Shown here: one piece after another, positions 45,878-52,098 of the stretch | How positions within the stretch are numbered: position 1 is the stretch's first letter | Layout of the letters: each line of letters begins with the position of its first letter | Source: Arthrobacter sp. NEB 688 | GTDB taxonomy: Bacteria > Actinomycetota > Actinomycetes > Actinomycetales > Dermatophilaceae | Direction of reading: 5' to 3' | Assembly: GCF_013201035.1 (NCBI RefSeq) | Contig: NZ_CP053707.1 | Span: 1,736,001 to 1,800,000 of the forward strand | DNA length: 64,000 nt | Notes under the pieces: generated by a model | The model's input: only the letters and a program-made list of their open reading frames with translations | Database searches by the model: none | Told to the model about the DNA's origin: nothing | Translations under genes and position numbers: made by a program

Positions 45878-46435
45878 GGTGCGCGGCGTGGTCCGGCCGT
45901 CGTCGGCCCCGGTCGGGGGCAGGGGCTGTTGCACCACGACGAGGCCGCGCTCCTCCATCTCGTCGAGGAGGTCGCGCAGCTCGCTGCGGACGAAGTCGCG
46001 GGTCGCGGTGTCGCGCATCGCGATGCGCAGCGCGGCGACCTCCCGGGTGAGGAACTCGGTGTCGGCGAGGTTGCGCTCGTCGCGCGAGCGGTCCTGCTCG
46101 AGCGCGACGCGGTCGCGGTCGGCCTGCCGGTTCTGCGCGAGGAGGATGAGCGGGGCCGCGTAGGAAGCCTGGAGCGACAGGATGAGCGTCAGCAGCGTGT
46201 AGTTGAGCGAGCGGGGGTCGAACTGGAGGACCGCCGGCAGGAAGGTGTTCCAGACGAGCCAGACGATGACGAAGACCGTCATCCCGATGAGGAAGTACGC
46301 CGTGCCCATGAAGCGGGCGAACTTCTCGGACAGGACGCCGAACGCCTCCCCGGAGAACGCGGCCGGCAGCGTGAAGCGGCGGCGCCCGGCCTCGCGGGGG
46401 GTGTCGATGCGGGCGCGGCGCTCGCGCTCAGCCAC
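45875..46435 (-). CDS. DUF1003 membrane protein
   Basis: This 186-residue protein has two adjacent helices (about 45-65 and 80-100) and a coiled-coil-like charged C-terminal half (NRQADRDRVALEQDRSRDER). The pattern FARFMGTAYFLIGMT and FDPRSLNYTLLTLILSLQASYAAPLILLAQ is diagnostic for DUF1003. Function is unknown. GTG 46435 overlaps the end of the CBS-domain gene by 8 bp, so the two are coupled. The order CBS/MgtE, DUF1003, mrp is conserved in actinobacteria. Confidence 0.9.
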   Translation of the reverse strand: MAERERRARIDTPREAGRRRFTLPAAFSGEAFGVLSEKFARFMGTAYFLIGMTVFVIVWLVWNTFLPAVLQFDPRSLNYTLLTLILSLQASYAAPLILLAQNRQADRDRVALEQDRSRDERNLADTEFLTREVAALRIAMRDTATRDFVRSELRDLLDEMEERGLVVVQQPLPPTGADDGRTTPRT

Positions 46436-47726
46436 GACGCACCTCCTCGTGGGCGACGACGTCGTGGCGCTCCTCGCGCCAGTCGTCGGGGAGGATGTGG
46501 TCGAGCACGTCGTCGACGGTGACCGCGCCGAGCAGGTGCCCCTCCGCGTCGACGACCGGCATCCCGACGAGGTCGTAGGTGGCGAGCGTGCGGGTGACCT
46601 GCCCGAGGGTGGCGGTCGGGGGCAGCGGCTCGACGTCCTTGTCGAGGATGCCGCCGATCGGCTGGTGGGGCGCCTCGCGCAGCAGGCGCTGGATGTGGAC
46701 GACGCCGAGGAACTTGCCGGTCGGGGTCTCGAGCGGCGGCCGGCAGACGAAGACGGTGCAGGCGAGCGCGGTCGAGAGCTCCTGGCGGCGGACGACGGCG
46801 AGGGCCTCGGCGATGGAGGCCTCCGGGCCGAGGATGACCGGCTCGGTCGTCATGAGGCCGCCGGCGGTGTTCTCGTCGTACATGAGGAGGCGGCGCAGGT
46901 CGGCGGCCTCGTCGGCGTCCATCTTCTCGAGGAGCTCCTCCTGGCGCTCCGGCGGGAGCTCGGAGAGCAGGTCGGCGGCGTCGTCGGGCTCCATCGCCTC
47001 GAGGACGTCGGCGGCGCGGGCGACCTCGAGGCCGACGAGGATCTCGACCTGGTCGTCCTCGGGCAGCTCCTCGATGACGTCGGCGAGGCGCTCGTCGGTC
47101 AGGGCCGCGGCGACCTCGGCGCGGCGGCGCGGGCTGAGGTCGTGGATGACCTCGGCGAGGTCGGCGGGCTTGAGGTCCTCGTAGGTCTCGAGGAGCTTGG
47201 CGGCGCCCTGGCCCTCGCTCGCGGTGCGCAGGCCGACGACGTCCTCGATCGTCGCGACGAAGGTCTCGCCGCGCCGGCGGCCCAGGCGCCCGAGGCGGGA
47301 GGGGCGCGAGGCGTCGAGGCGGACCGCGACGCGCGTGACGTTCCATCCCCGCTGGCCGAGCTGCTCGATGCCGACGTCCTGGACGGTGGCCGTCGCGATG
47401 TCGCCGTCCTCGGTGCGGACCTGGACGGTGCGCTCGAGGAGCTCGGCGACGACGAGGGTCTCGTTGGGGCGCTGCTCGAAGCGGCGCATGTTGACCAGCC
47501 CGGTCGTGATGACCTGGCCGCCCTCGACCGAGGTGACGCGGGTCATCGGGACGAAGACGCGCCGCCGGCCGGGCACCTCGACGACGAGGCCGATGGCGCG
47601 CGGACGGGCCTTGCTGGCGCTGAACGTGACGACGACGTCGCGGACGCGGCCCACCTTGTCACCGAGCGGGTCGAAGACGTCCAGCTCGGACAGGCGGCCG
47701 ACGAAGGCGCGGGTCGGCGTGCTCAC
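46428..47726 (-). CDS. Soluble MgtE-N/CBS-domain protein with N-terminal PRC-like domain
   Basis: This 432-residue protein has an N-terminal PRC-barrel-like domain (about 1-85), an MgtE N-terminal helical superhelix (about 185-285; LSPRRRAEVAAALTDERLAD, LEAMEPDDAADLLSELPPER) and a CBS pair (about 290-415). It has no transmembrane helices, so it carries the regulatory half of an MgtE magnesium channel without the pore. It may sense Mg2+ or nucleotides. GTG 47726 lies 7 nt after TAGCCT, part of which is the upstream gene's stop codon. Confidence 0.88.
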   Translation of the reverse strand: MSTPTRAFVGRLSELDVFDPLGDKVGRVRDVVVTFSASKARPRAIGLVVEVPGRRRVFVPMTRVTSVEGGQVITTGLVNMRRFEQRPNETLVVAELLERTVQVRTEDGDIATATVQDVGIEQLGQRGWNVTRVAVRLDASRPSRLGRLGRRRGETFVATIEDVVGLRTASEGQGAAKLLETYEDLKPADLAEVIHDLSPRRRAEVAAALTDERLADVIEELPEDDQVEILVGLEVARAADVLEAMEPDDAADLLSELPPERQEELLEKMDADEAADLRRLLMYDENTAGGLMTTEPVILGPEASIAEALAVVRRQELSTALACTVFVCRPPLETPTGKFLGVVHIQRLLREAPHQPIGGILDKDVEPLPPTATLGQVTRTLATYDLVGMPVVDAEGHLLGAVTVDDVLDHILPDDWREERHDVVAHEEVRRG

Positions 47727-47733
47727 GTCCGAC

Positions 47734-47739
47734 AGGCTA
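47734..47739 (-). promoter_or_regulatory. -10 element of the MgtE-N/CBS gene (TAGCCT), overlapping the upstream stop codon
   Basis: The TAG stop of the upstream gene (47739-47737 on the minus strand) begins the TAGCCT hexamer, which lies 7 nt before GTG 47726. Confidence 0.5.
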
Positions 47740-48375
47740 TCCGCCGTCGGGCGGGGTCGAGGACGGCTCGTGGGTCGTGTTCTCGGGGGTCGTGTTGCGG
47801 CGGGCGCCGGCCCGGCCGCGCCAGTGCCAGGGGCGCCGGCGGGCGGTCGCCGGGGCCGCGGGGCGGACGGGGGCGGCGCCGCTGCCGTCGTCGTAGTGGC
47901 CGGGCTGCTCGCCGGGGCGCCCGTGGGGGGTGAGGACGTGGAGGGTGTTGTGGTCGCGCCAGCGCTCGAGGACCTCCTCGGCGCTGCCCGGCGCGTTGAG
48001 CCGCTCGGGTCGCAGGACGGCCGCCGCCTGCTCCCACGCGTCGGTGCCCGGCTCCAGGGCGCGGGCGGTCGCGTGCATCGTCAGGAGGCGTCCGCCGGTG
48101 TCCTTGCTGCGCAGGACGAGCTCGACCTCGTCGGGCAGCCAGGGCAGGTGCTGCTCGCCCGGGCCGGAGACGACGTAGGCCGCCGGCCCCGTGCCCCGCT
48201 CGTCGCCGTCGTCGTGCCAGACGTGCCACACCGGGTGCGTCGTGCCCTCCGGGAGGCGCACCCAGAGCAGGCCGGACTTGGACGCCGCCTCGTTGACGAG
48301 CTTCGTCACGTCGACCCGTGGGGGAGCGGGTGGGACGGCGGTGTCCGGTGCGTCGGTGGTCGCCTCGTCGGGCAT
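47737..48375 (-). CDS. Conserved hypothetical protein
   Basis: This 212-residue soluble protein has an N-terminal Pro/Ala-rich tail, then a compact alpha/beta domain (VDVTKLVNEAASKSGLLWVR, HPVWHVWHDDG, YVVSGPGEQHLPWLPDEVEL, GGRLLTMHATARAL) and a basic C-terminal tail with an Arg/Trp-rich patch. The central strands recall FMN-binding split barrels, but no cofactor motif is clear. ATG 48375 lies 7 nt after a -10-like GAGAGT. It is followed on the same strand by the CBS, DUF1003 and mrp genes. Confidence 0.7.
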   Translation of the reverse strand: MPDEATTDAPDTAVPPAPPRVDVTKLVNEAASKSGLLWVRLPEGTTHPVWHVWHDDGDERGTGPAAYVVSGPGEQHLPWLPDEVELVLRSKDTGGRLLTMHATARALEPGTDAWEQAAAVLRPERLNAPGSAEEVLERWRDHNTLHVLTPHGRPGEQPGHYDDGSGAAPVRPAAPATARRRPWHWRGRAGARRNTTPENTTHEPSSTPPDGG

Positions 48376-48556
48376 GGGTCGCACTCTCCCACACCGAGCG
48401 TGTGGCGGGCTCCCGGCGGACCTCCCGACCGCCTGCGTGGGTCGGGTCGTCGACGAGGTCAGGTCGCGCCCGGCGGCGCGTGCGGGCGCAGGCGCTCGGG
48501 ACACGAGATCGTCTGTGGGGGAGTGATTTTGGTCGTCCACAGGTGCGCTTGGATGC

Positions 48557-48585
48557 TTGCCCGTCGAACGCGTGTTCGGTAGGAT
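48557..48585 (+). promoter_or_regulatory. Promoter of the HNH endonuclease gene (TTGCCC-N17-TAGGAT)
   Basis: TTGCCC (48557-48562) and TAGGAT (48580-48585) have ideal 17-nt spacing and lie 5 nt before ATG 48591. It is the clearest two-box promoter in the window. Its spacer is occupied almost entirely by an SOS-like palindrome. Confidence 0.7.
48564..48579 (+). promoter_or_regulatory. LexA-type SOS box in the HNH gene promoter
   Basis: TCGAACGCGTGTTCGG matches the actinobacterial/Bacillus-type SOS box (CGAAC-N4-GTTCG perfect; only the last base differs from TCGAAC-N4-GTTCGA). It sits exactly between the -35 and -10 hexamers, where bound LexA would block polymerase. Confidence 0.75.
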
Positions 48586-48590
48586 GGGGC

Positions 48591-50027
48591 ATGGACACCG
48601 GGACCCTCTCCCGCCGCGTGACGGCGTTGCGCGAGGAGTGCGCGCGGCTGGGTCGTGAGCTGGTGGAGGGCGGTCACCGGTTGTCGGAGGACGAGGCGTT
48701 CGCGCTCGCGGGTGAGCTGCAGGGGTTGGTGAACGCAGCCGAGGGTGCGACGGCAGTGGCGGGGGCGTGGGGTGCGCGGTTCGAGCTGACGCTGATGGGC
48801 ACGGAGCGGGTCCACCCGTTGGGGTTCATGGACCAGATGTCCGGGACGCAGATGTCCTTGGCGACGGGTGTGACGGAGGGTCTGGCCACGCGGAAGGTCT
48901 CGCTCGGGGCGGCGTTGGGTGGGTGCTTCCCGCGGCTGTTGGACCTGCTGCTGGGTGGTGAGGTGCCGGCGGCGTCGGCGCACAAGGTCATCGACGCGTG
49001 TGCCGGGCTGGACGTCGAGGCGTGCGAGCGGGTCGACGGAGCCCTGGCTCCTCGTCTGGCGGGGATGGACCCGGCGCGCGTGACGGGTGAGGCTCGCCGG
49101 GTGGCCTCCCGGGTGGCGGCGGACCAGGTCGCGGCGCAGGTGGCGCGGACGAGGAAGGGTCGGCGGGTGGAGGTGTGCCCGGGTGAGGACGGGTTGACCG
49201 AGTGGCTCGCCGCGTTGCCGACGGCCACGTCGAGCGCGATGTGGACGGCGGTCGAAGCGCTGGCCGGGGACTATCGCGCGCTCGACGACGCCCTGTCCCT
49301 GCCGGAGTCCCGCGCGGACGCCCTGACCGATCTCGTCCTCAGAAACGTGACGGTGTCCGCGCAGGTGACTCTCGGGGTGCCGGTGGTCACCGACCGGCCG
49401 GCGCCGGAGCCGGTGGCGGGGACGCGGTTTCGGGTGGAGTGGGACGACGACGACACCCTCGTCGACGCGACGACGGGTGAGTTCGTGCGGTACGGCGACC
49501 TGGACCCTCAGTCGCGGGAGGAGCTGTCGTGGCTCGAGGAGCCCGCCGACGACCCCAGCGACCACGCCGTCCTCCAGGCCGAGGTGACTCCCGGGTACGC
49601 CGTGTCCGGCACCCAGCTCCCCGGCCTGGGGTGGGTCGAGCCCGCCACCCTGGCCAACCTCTTGAAGCTGCTGCCGGTCGAGGTCGCCCGGGCCGTGCTC
49701 GAGGCGGGCAGTGGCACCCTGTCCTCCCTCACCACTGCGGCGTACCGGCCACCCAGGGCCGTCAGCGACTTCGTCGAGACTCGCGACGGGACGTGTCGGA
49801 TGTGGGGCTGCACCCGCCCCGCCGCACGCTGCGACCTCGACCACGTCCGACCCTGGCCCGGCGGCAGCACGTCACCGGGCAACCTCGCTGCGCTCTGCCG
49901 ACGCCATCACCGCCTCAAGCAACAAGGGCGTTGGCGACCGATCCTGGCACCGGACGGGACCGTCACCTGGCACGGACCCGACGGCGCCACCCGCACCACC
50001 GAACCCGCTCACCGCCTCTCCGGGTGA
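48591..50027 (+). CDS. DUF222/HNH endonuclease-domain protein (13E12 repeat family)
   Basis: This 478-residue protein has an N-terminal DUF222 helical domain (about 10-330) and a C-terminal HNH nuclease domain (CRMWGCTRPAARCDLDHVRP, then LAALCRRHHRLK) with the Cys pairs and His residues needed for metal and catalysis. Members are multicopy in actinobacteria and linked to the REP13E12 repeats of M. tuberculosis, several of which are LexA-regulated. The 5' half uses more G-ending codons (GGG, GTG, TTG) than its neighbours, a hint of separate origin. It is a single gene with its own promoter. Confidence 0.9.
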   Translation: MDTGTLSRRVTALREECARLGRELVEGGHRLSEDEAFALAGELQGLVNAAEGATAVAGAWGARFELTLMGTERVHPLGFMDQMSGTQMSLATGVTEGLATRKVSLGAALGGCFPRLLDLLLGGEVPAASAHKVIDACAGLDVEACERVDGALAPRLAGMDPARVTGEARRVASRVAADQVAAQVARTRKGRRVEVCPGEDGLTEWLAALPTATSSAMWTAVEALAGDYRALDDALSLPESRADALTDLVLRNVTVSAQVTLGVPVVTDRPAPEPVAGTRFRVEWDDDDTLVDATTGEFVRYGDLDPQSREELSWLEEPADDPSDHAVLQAEVTPGYAVSGTQLPGLGWVEPATLANLLKLLPVEVARAVLEAGSGTLSSLTTAAYRPPRAVSDFVETRDGTCRMWGCTRPAARCDLDHVRPWPGGSTSPGNLAALCRRHHRLKQQGRWRPILAPDGTVTWHGPDGATRTTEPAHRLSG

Positions 50028-50173
50028 GCCGCGGCGGCGACCGTCACCCCTGCCCCTGAGTGCTCCGGGCCGGCCGCGGCGTGGGTCACACCGTGACGTG
50101 GCTCATGCGGGAGGCGCCCACCCCGCTGCTAGCGTCCGAGGCGACCGTGCACCCCGCCTCGGAAGGCTCGACG

Positions 50174-51238
50174 ATGCGCAGCGCCAAGGACTTCTTCGCC
50201 CCCCTCGCCGTGGGGGCGCCGACGCCGCTCCGCGAGGTGCCGGCCCGCCCCGGCCGGATGATCCACTTCGTCGACCCGAGCAACCCGAAGATGGCCGCGA
50301 AGGTCCCGGACCTGGTCGGCACGGTCGACGTCCTCCTCGGCAACCTCGAGGACGCCGTCAAGGCCGAGAACAAGGAGGCGGCCCGCCAGGGGCTCGTCGA
50401 CATCGCGCAGGCCACCGACTTCGGCGAGCACACCCAGCTCTGGACGCGCATCAACGCGCTCGACAGCCCGTGGGCCCTGGACGACCTCACGACGCTCGTC
50501 ACCGAGATCGGTGACCGGCTCGACGTCGTCATGGTCCCCAAGGTGCAGGGGCCCGAGGACATCCACTACGTCGACCGGCTGCTCGCGCAGCTCGAGGCGA
50601 AGGCCGGCGTGACCCGCCCGATCCTCGTCCACGCGATCCTCGAGACCGCCCGGGGGATGGCCAACGTCGAGGCCATCGCCGGCGCGAGCCCGCGGATGCA
50701 GGGCATCAGCCTCGGCCCCGCCGACCTCGCGGCCGACCGCCGGATGAAGACGACGCGCGTCGGCGGGGGCCACCCCGGCTACCTCGTGCGCCGGGACCCG
50801 GTCGACGGCGACGTCGAGGGTCCGCGGCCGGTCTTCCAGCAGGACCTGTGGCACTACACGATCGCGCGGATGGTCGACGCCTGCGCGATGCACGGGATCT
50901 TCCCGTACTACGGGCCCTTCGGGGACATCAAGGACGTGGTCGCGTGCGAGGACCAGTTCCGCAACGCCTTCCTCCTCGGCTGCGTCGGGACGTGGACCCT
51001 GCACCCGGTCCAGATCGCCATCGCCAAGAAGGTCTTCAGCCCCTCGGCCGACGACGTCGCTCACGCCCGTCGGGTGCGGGCGGCGATGGGTGACGGCACC
51101 GGCGCCGTCATGCTCGACGGCAAGATGGAGGACGACGCGAGCCTCAAGCAGTGCCTCGTCATCCTCGAGCTCGCGGAGCGCCTGTCGGCCAACGACCCCG
51201 AGCTCGCCGAGCTCTACGCCGAGCGGAGCGACGCATGA
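50174..51238 (+). CDS. HpcH/HpaI-family CoA-ester lyase (malyl-CoA lyase-like, long form)
   Basis: This 354-residue TIM-barrel enzyme of the HpcH/HpaI/citrate lyase beta superfamily contains LLGNLEDAVKAENK with Mg-binding acidic residues, VMVPKVQGPED, ILETARGMANVEAI with the catalytic Glu, and a lid-like C-terminal region. Length and features resemble Mcl1-type L-malyl-CoA/beta-methylmalyl-CoA lyases. It overlaps the next gene by 4 bp (ATGA), so the two related enzymes are co-translated. ATG 50174 follows GGAAGG. A GTCAC/GTGAC palindrome (50085-50097) and TAGCGT (50130-50135) lie upstream. Confidence 0.82.
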   Translation: MRSAKDFFAPLAVGAPTPLREVPARPGRMIHFVDPSNPKMAAKVPDLVGTVDVLLGNLEDAVKAENKEAARQGLVDIAQATDFGEHTQLWTRINALDSPWALDDLTTLVTEIGDRLDVVMVPKVQGPEDIHYVDRLLAQLEAKAGVTRPILVHAILETARGMANVEAIAGASPRMQGISLGPADLAADRRMKTTRVGGGHPGYLVRRDPVDGDVEGPRPVFQQDLWHYTIARMVDACAMHGIFPYYGPFGDIKDVVACEDQFRNAFLLGCVGTWTLHPVQIAIAKKVFSPSADDVAHARRVRAAMGDGTGAVMLDGKMEDDASLKQCLVILELAERLSANDPELAELYAERSDA

Positions 51239-52098
51239 GCGACACCTACCGTCCCCGCCGCTCGGTCCTCTACATGCCGAGCAGCAACGAGCGTGCCCTC
51301 GAGAAGGCGAAGACGCTGCCGGTCGACGGCCTGATCCTCGACCTCGAGGACGCGGTCGCCCCGGACGACAAGCCGAAGGCTCGCGAGAACGCCTGCGCCG
51401 CAGCGTCGTCCGGTGAGTACGGCCACCGCGAGGTGACCATCCGCGTCAACGGGCTCGGCACCGAGTGGCACGACGCCGACCTCGAGGCCGCCTGCGCGGC
51501 AGGCCCGGACGGCATCGTCGTCCCCAAGGTCGGCTCGGCACAGGAGGTTCGCGACCTCGTGGCCGCGATGGAGCGCCACGGCGTCCCCGACCGCACGCGT
51601 CTCTGGGCGATGGTCGAGACCCCCGGCGCCGTCCTCGACGCGCGCGCCATCGCGTCCGCCTCCGACCGGCTGGCCGTCCTCGTGCTCGGCACCAACGACC
51701 TCGTCAAGGAGCTCCAGGCGCGCTTCGTGCCCGGGCGCGCGCCCCTGCTGACGGCGCTGTCGACCGTCCTCCTCGCCGGCCGCGCGGCCGGTGTCGCGGT
51801 GCTCGACGGCGTGTTCAACGACGTCCGGGACGCCCGCGGCTTCGCGGCCGAGTGCCGCGAGGGACGTGACCTCGGCTTCGACGGCAAGACGCTCATCCAC
51901 CCCGGTCAGGTCGACCCCTGCAACACCGCCTTCGCCCCGAGCGAGGAGGAGGTCGAGGACGCCCGCGGCCTGCTCGCCGCCTGGGAGGCCGGCGCCGGCC
52001 GCGGCGTCGTCACGCACCGCGGCCGGATGGTCGAGAACCTCCACGTCGAGGTCGCCCAGCGTGTCCTCGCGGTCGACGAGGTCGTCCGCGCCCGCTGA
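51235..52098 (+). CDS. HpcH/HpaI-family CoA-ester lyase or thioesterase (CitE-like, short form)
   Basis: This 287-residue CitE-like enzyme starts with RRSVLYMPSSNERALEKAKT and has DGLILDLEDAVAPDDKPKAR (Mg site), VVPKVGSAQEV, AMVETPGAVLDA and FDGKTLIHPGQVD. Relatives include citramalyl-CoA lyase, (3S)-malyl-CoA thioesterase (Mcl2) and stand-alone CitE. Encoded directly behind a Mcl1-like enzyme, it may hydrolyse or cleave the same CoA ester. No other ethylmalonyl-CoA pathway genes are in the window, so the pathway is uncertain. Confidence 0.85.
   Translation: MSDTYRPRRSVLYMPSSNERALEKAKTLPVDGLILDLEDAVAPDDKPKARENACAAASSGEYGHREVTIRVNGLGTEWHDADLEAACAAGPDGIVVPKVGSAQEVRDLVAAMERHGVPDRTRLWAMVETPGAVLDARAIASASDRLAVLVLGTNDLVKELQARFVPGRAPLLTALSTVLLAGRAAGVAVLDGVFNDVRDARGFAAECREGRDLGFDGKTLIHPGQVDPCNTAFAPSEEEVEDARGLLAAWEAGAGRGVVTHRGRMVENLHVEVAQRVLAVDEVVRAR

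Follow-up and report, generated by a model that had tools for sequence, protein, structure and literature searches.

What a cell would gain from timing a nuclease to DNA damage, and what that nuclease would then cut, is the question raised by a gene in the 64,000-nucleotide (nt) stretch of Arthrobacter sp. NEB 688 analysed here, hereafter the window, which covers positions 1,736,001-1,800,000 of a 4.08-Mb single-contig genome (labelled G000 below). The gene occupies 48591..50027 on the forward strand, from the ATG at 48591 through the stop codon that ends at 50027, and encodes 478 amino acids with a DUF222 domain and an HNH nuclease motif. We consider it very probable, from sequence, that the gene belongs to the actinobacterial DUF222/HNH (13E12) family, that LexA controls it and that its product is a nuclease. 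Within a genome, gene conversion lets copies of the gene and its promoter overwrite one another. Relatives appear to retain expression timed to damage, since some of them swap the LexA box for the motif of a second damage regulator, PafBC. Below, we describe the promoter and its regulatory motifs, from the window outwards to the phylum, before turning to conversion, to the fold of the DUF222 domain and to the roles that these observations allow.

A LexA box in the promoter spacer

The assignment to the 13E12 family, proposed in the preliminary description of this DNA, is borne out by a DUF222 score of 30.9 bits against the curated Pfam cut-off of 24.4, by a match to the PHROG HNH profile (4.2e-7) and by conserved HNH residues. 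The nuclease core lies at 49794..49910 (forward strand; codons 402-440) and comprises C402, C407, H418, N431, C436 and H439/H440, residues that we take to have catalytic or zinc-binding roles; C402, C407, H418 and C436 are invariant across 22 sequences. The Pfam HNH model itself scores 20.5 bits, slightly below its cut-off of 21.4, and NCBIfam gave no match at E <= 0.1.

Read directly, the promoter runs from a -35-like hexamer, TTGCCC (48557..48562, forward strand), through a single G at 48563 to the LexA (SOS) box TCGAACGCGTGTTCGG (48564..48579, assigned to neither strand), followed at once by the -10 element TAGGAT (48580..48585, forward strand; TANNNT type), GGGGC and the ATG. The box itself is supported by this reading, by the genome scan and by comparison across the genus. 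The preliminary description had placed it exactly between the hexamers, 11 nt before the start codon, with 15 of 16 positions matching LexA: the position and the 11 bases hold, whereas the spacer is 17 nt long and the box covers 16 of them. The count of 15 is fair against a 16-letter consensus, and corresponds to 11 of the 12 fixed positions of the palindrome TCGAAC-N4-GTTCGA as printed in an excerpt of PMC4181829. No other site in the window comes within two mismatches of TCGAACRNNTGTTCGA; allowing three mismatches yields 28 matches where shuffled sequence yields 7.3, which shows that loose matches abound in this DNA and that shuffling understates chance.

In actinobacteria, a TANNNT element 5-6 nt before the start typifies leaderless transcripts, and the mRNA of the window gene is probably leaderless because its ATG comes only 5 nt past the -10 element. 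Of the 52 copies in the genus, 51 have this element end 5-6 nt ahead of the mapped start and one, G010a, has it 13 nt away. The five close copies in the window's own genome all have TTG at the position of the -35-like hexamer and share the whole arrangement TTG-N3-G-box-TANNNT. In exactly this form the layout is confined to three of 58 genomes (five places in the window's own, four in G003 and one in G010), as other relatives have TCGTAC variants or different spacing; in G010 the exact layout, at 2358261-2358289 (L063), falls outside the listed copies. A generic sigma-70 scan of 48300-50300 detected no promoter, and by that consensus the hexamers are weak. RNA structure at the gene start is unremarkable (z -1.1).

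Damage motifs across the genome

Across the whole genome, 29 sites match LexA with at most one mismatch, compared with six for a reversed control pattern, which implies about 0.1 chance sites per 64 kb. Seven of these 29 precede DUF222/HNH-type genes, namely the five close copies (the window gene and those at 1564168, 1850958, 2749848 and 2889206) and two distant ones (678984 and 1176210). The copy at 2749848-2751273 (L017, L020) is frameshifted. The genome encodes lexA itself (L003; LexA DNA-binding and S24 domains) with a perfect box beside it, and four clustered LexA-like boxes, matching 10-12 of 12 positions, adjoin this gene at L003 1432-1516 (G000 ~2278975-2279059). Another perfect site adjoins a PHP-domain polymerase-like gene that we read as dnaE2-type, recA has a one-mismatch box about 0.18 kb upstream, and a third perfect palindrome (L005) lies by a sulfite/nitrite-reductase-like gene, identified by eye, with no obvious SOS gene there. 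In box sequence, in repressor position and in the boxes by lexA and the polymerase-like gene, this resembles the actinobacterial LexA regulon; the difference is that DUF222/HNH genes occupy seven of the 29 best sites.

The motif of PafBC, a damage activator that works independently of LexA, is given as TGTCGG-10xN-TA-3xN-T in an excerpt of PMC8151990 and was scanned by us as TGTCRGTG-N8-TANNNT. It occurs in the same genome at 13 exact sites and at 79 with at most one mismatch (five for the reversed control). Among the subset of the 13 that was scanned for neighbouring genes, exact sites precede recA, sbcD-like, SprT-like, exonuclease/GIY-YIG and mycothiol-S-transferase genes, and behind three of the 13 lie DUF222/HNH-type genes (2071910, 2338605 and 2801112), the first of which was assigned by 76% identity to the protein at 2338605, Pfam giving no match. 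Altogether we found 14 DUF222/HNH-type genes in this genome: seven with a LexA box, four with a PafBC motif of at least 10/11, two at 9/11, one of these matches sitting far upstream of its gene, and one with neither; two of the 14, at 1686376 and 3807667, resemble the window protein in the HNH part only. The motif would place some copies in the RecA-independent PafBC regulon, unlike the window gene, whose best match within 120 nt is 7/11. A search for PafB and PafC candidates located adjacent WYL-domain matches at 2768612 and 2769607, each a domain match only.

Exchange of motifs in the genus and the phylum

We compared 12 Phycicoccus genomes through 52 of the 53 listed matches, all starting at profile position 1-4, with one contig-edge fragment (G002 C75) excluded and motifs scored within 60 nt of the start. 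A LexA-type box of at least 10/12 stands before 44 of the 52 copies (control, 7/1365 windows), and the PafBC motif at 9/11 or better before seven others, all lacking the LexA box (control, 9/1365); the eighth box-less copy, G005a, has a weak PafBC motif (8/11), and no copy carries both. The preliminary description had staked its reading on the box being conserved among related promoters; it is, and the phylum survey agrees. That reading as a whole is supported, and what it missed is the replacement of the box by the PafBC motif in some relatives and the gene conversion described below. Promoter type changes at least five times on the gene tree, with G005a labelled as PafBC despite its 8/11 score, and a single clade of seven PafBC-type copies from G005 and G010 is rejected (approximately unbiased test, p-AU 5e-8). 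A scan of genome contigs returned three loci, all from P. jejuensis.

At E <= 1e-12, 40 of 119 genomes drawn from the phylum have a DUF222 match. The survey of their promoters took in 94 genes from 38 genomes among the matches listed, made up of 26 of 30 returned loci and 68 hand-picked matches (profile start at or before 31, no genome contributing more than six genes), each scanned over 400 nt upstream; four loci of uncertain position within the locus (L138, L141, L143, L148) were excluded. A LexA box of at least 11/12 occurs before 49 of the 94 genes and in 3 of 385 control windows, which are stretches further upstream and not annotated promoters, several genes sharing one genome. At 10/12 or better the figures are 65 of 94 and 33 of 385, for the exact PafBC motif (11/11) they are 15 and 0, and for LexA at 11 or PafBC at 10 and above they are 57 and 5. 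Ten genes have both motifs and 37 neither, and in 27 of the 38 genomes at least one DUF222 gene bears a motif. Relatives with both may possibly be under dual control. At six loci (L176, L178, L179 and L180 of G115, L185 and L133), the LexA box directly follows or overlaps the PafBC element.

LexA control of 13E12/HNH genes is already known from Mycobacterium tuberculosis: the LexA targets in the excerpt of PMC4181829 include 13E12 HNH genes, as the preliminary description had stated, and an excerpt of PMC8151990 gives five putative HNH endonucleases as induced by mitomycin C in a RecA-dependent manner, which we infer to be 13E12 proteins. In the literature searched, the best-ranked matches included nothing on the exchange of LexA and PafBC motifs, on PafBC control of DUF222/HNH genes, on a phylum-wide link or survey or on the DUF222 fold.

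Conversion among copies at shared sites

Genomes of the genus hold 2-16 matched stretches each, and comparison of flanks shows that copies from different species occupy the same positions on the chromosome. The gene tree has 46 rows, namely 45 of the 52 genus copies and one same-site copy from G006; seven short or broken copies were omitted, five broken ones entered only up to the break, and G009f was used as translated though its end looks out of frame. By flank reading, 37 of the 46 rows fall at nine sites; G011c, which has its left flank in common with the window copy, was left unassigned.

The tree follows genome and not site. Site labels on the tree require 27 changes against a shuffled mean of 26.3 (37 copies, nine sites), whereas genome labels require 15, where the minimum is 11, the shuffled mean 27.1 and none of 300 shuffles is as low. 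For 122 of the 135 directed comparisons at the same site, a copy is closer to a paralog from its own genome than to its positional partner, ten of the 13 exceptions involving G006g or G007a, and a clade of the window copy with the same-site copy of G006 is rejected (p-AU 6e-5). Gene conversion is concluded from this resemblance of copies at nine conserved sites to those of their own genome and not to their positional counterparts; independent replacement at the same sites may be an alternative. In 11 of 38 within-genome pairs, from four genomes, a run of identical polymorphic sites is matched by at most one in 1000 shuffles, a test that ignores uneven conservation along the gene. The longest run, between two copies of the window's genome, spans 117 polymorphic sites (~470 bp), and the window copy's own runs are weak, being matched by 31, 30, 206 and 148 of 1000 shuffles.

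Promoters seem to take part, with a median identity of 0.78 within genomes against 0.44 at the same site, and the DNA common to own-genome copies extends from 62-86 nt ahead of the ATG, or 28 nt for one pair, to the vicinity of the stop codon. The REP13E12 genes of M. tuberculosis, described in an excerpt of a preprint (PMC13061034) as a conversion hotspot with 87 gene-conversion events, are alike by description in DUF222 and HNH domains, several copies, LexA control and frequent conversion. Phycicoccus differs in the nine shared sites, in a promoter, probably leaderless, whose 17-nt spacer contains the box, and in the replacement of that box by the PafBC motif in some relatives.

At the window site itself, G008 and G004 lack the nuclease gene and have the two flanking genes side by side. 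In G000, G003, G006 and G007 the right-hand gene has a complete or partial copy upstream of it, as it does in G002, there with ~650 nt between; in G001, G005, G009, G010 and G011 neither the nuclease gene nor the left neighbour was found within 1.5 kb. Several copies in relatives, for example in G007, are broken. Two contigs of G003 (C11 and C12; L098, L099) terminate inside copies of the gene, which would be expected if near-identical repeats broke the assembly.

A possible ParB/Noc-like fold for DUF222

Pfam assigns DUF222 no function, and no title among the literature matches listed concerns it. As the full-length structure model was poor (predicted local distance difference test, pLDDT, 65.3), the N-terminal 195 residues were modelled alone. 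A helical domain encoded at 48717..49124 (forward strand; codons 43-178) resembles the DNA-binding domain of ParB/Noc proteins, with moderate evidence from the fold and weak evidence from sequence. The two are 12% identical with a weak profile match, and DUF222 differs further in being fused to HNH. Against the sequences of solved structures, the full-protein profile had no match at E <= 1, and the N-terminal profile gave 11 rows, none better than E 0.0088, headed by two designed proteins and including one ParB row at 0.66. DUF222 looks like a sequence-specific DNA binder.

Possible roles

LexA is a repressor whose release is triggered by RecA. With a dimer site between -35 and -10, in a placement that is conserved, bound LexA would block RNA polymerase. 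DNA damage would load RecA onto single-stranded DNA and so bring about LexA self-cleavage, and a leaderless nuclease mRNA would be produced just when RecA recombination is active. To judge from fold and motif, the DUF222 part would then grip DNA through its ParB/Noc-like helix-turn-helix while the C-terminal HNH domain cuts. The resulting recombinogenic breaks would include some in or near the family's own copies, a target we favour for its link with recombination timing and conversion, and RecA would repair them from a sister copy. We offer tentatively, and well short of conviction, the view that through its own breaks the family sustains itself and keeps its copies uniform in the course of the damage response. 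Weighing against it, conversion among repeats is also expected without any nuclease. Its extension to the phylum, in which ParB-like-DNA-binding HNH nucleases, wired to LexA or PafBC, whichever is available, would bring about their own concerted evolution through cuts in sister copies made during RecA activity, a damage-timed homing within the genome, we think unlikely.

The convergence of two damage regulators' motifs on one family would also suit an ordinary repair nuclease acting on damaged forks or on intermediates of recombination, with a logic like that of P1 Ref. The latter, in an excerpt of PMC4713147, is an HNH enzyme whose cutting is confined to RecA-bound DNA; the likeness, by description, lies in an HNH nuclease in a recombination or damage setting, and the difference in its being a phage gene. 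A published suggestion, again in the excerpt of PMC4181829, places 13E12 HNH proteins in a mismatch-repair-like set. However, the variable copy number, the broken copies and the window site left empty in two relatives are unlike core repair genes, and DUF222 has the look of a sequence-specific binder; we find this account rather doubtful. Damage timing is consistent, too, with a self-destruction or phage-exclusion device in which the HNH enzyme shreds the chromosome of a doomed or infected cell, and the excerpt of PMC9416677 describes an M. smegmatis HNH nuclease that cuts the chromosome and kills on over-expression, although in that text the term DUF222 is absent. Several co-induced copies would be redundant for a killer, and no PADLOC model matched at E <= 0.1, a result that covers described systems only and excludes little. 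Relatives on mobile DNA are few, with one of 50,697 phage and five of 72,556 plasmid records at E <= 1e-5, none covering most of the protein, and we judge a killing role improbable.

A selfish element, spreading like a free-standing homing endonuclease by cutting unoccupied sites and using damage timing for its own ends, would explain presence and absence among relatives, seen at the window site only, the many copies and their decay, and a shared block that is little more than promoter and gene. The empty sites may nevertheless be losses, no long terminal repeats bound the window gene, and with 37 of 46 tree rows at sites shared between species new insertions look rare in the genus; this we hold to be quite improbable. 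A transposon was rejected on the same absence of long terminal repeats and the scarcity of phage and plasmid relatives. Finally, the greater similarity of promoters within genomes would also be seen if the box were a passenger, an old promoter spread by gene conversion whose control is now functionless. The strong association of the box with these genes across 38 genomes of the phylum speaks against this, as do the PafBC motif in seven of the eight box-less genus copies and the repeated changes of promoter type, and we give it hardly any credence.

Many actinobacteria, among them M. tuberculosis, have numerous copies of DUF222/HNH proteins. That a link to damage control spans the phylum, through mutually replacing motifs whose two regulators are unrelated, suggests that timing is essential for the family's function, and the likely DNA-binding fold, together with conversion at fixed sites, makes the cutting target a testable question.

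Other features of the locus

Upstream of the promoter, a DnaA-box-like element TCGTCCACA (48533..48541, forward strand) matches eight of nine positions of TTRTCCACA, which we take to be the consensus. Such a 9-mer at 8/9 or better occurs in 20 of the 52 genus copies and in none of 1234 control windows, in many copies 47-58 nt before the start and in either orientation; this is conservation among homologous copies and not independent enrichment, and hints at a tie to replication initiation. To the left of the gene, both on the reverse strand, lie genes for a PRC-barrel/MgtE_N/CBS protein (46428-47726) and for a 212-amino-acid protein (47737-48375) that had no Pfam match at E <= 0.1. To the right, on the forward strand, lie two adjacent HpcH/HpaI-type lyase genes, 50177-51238 and 51235-52098, with distant mutual similarity.
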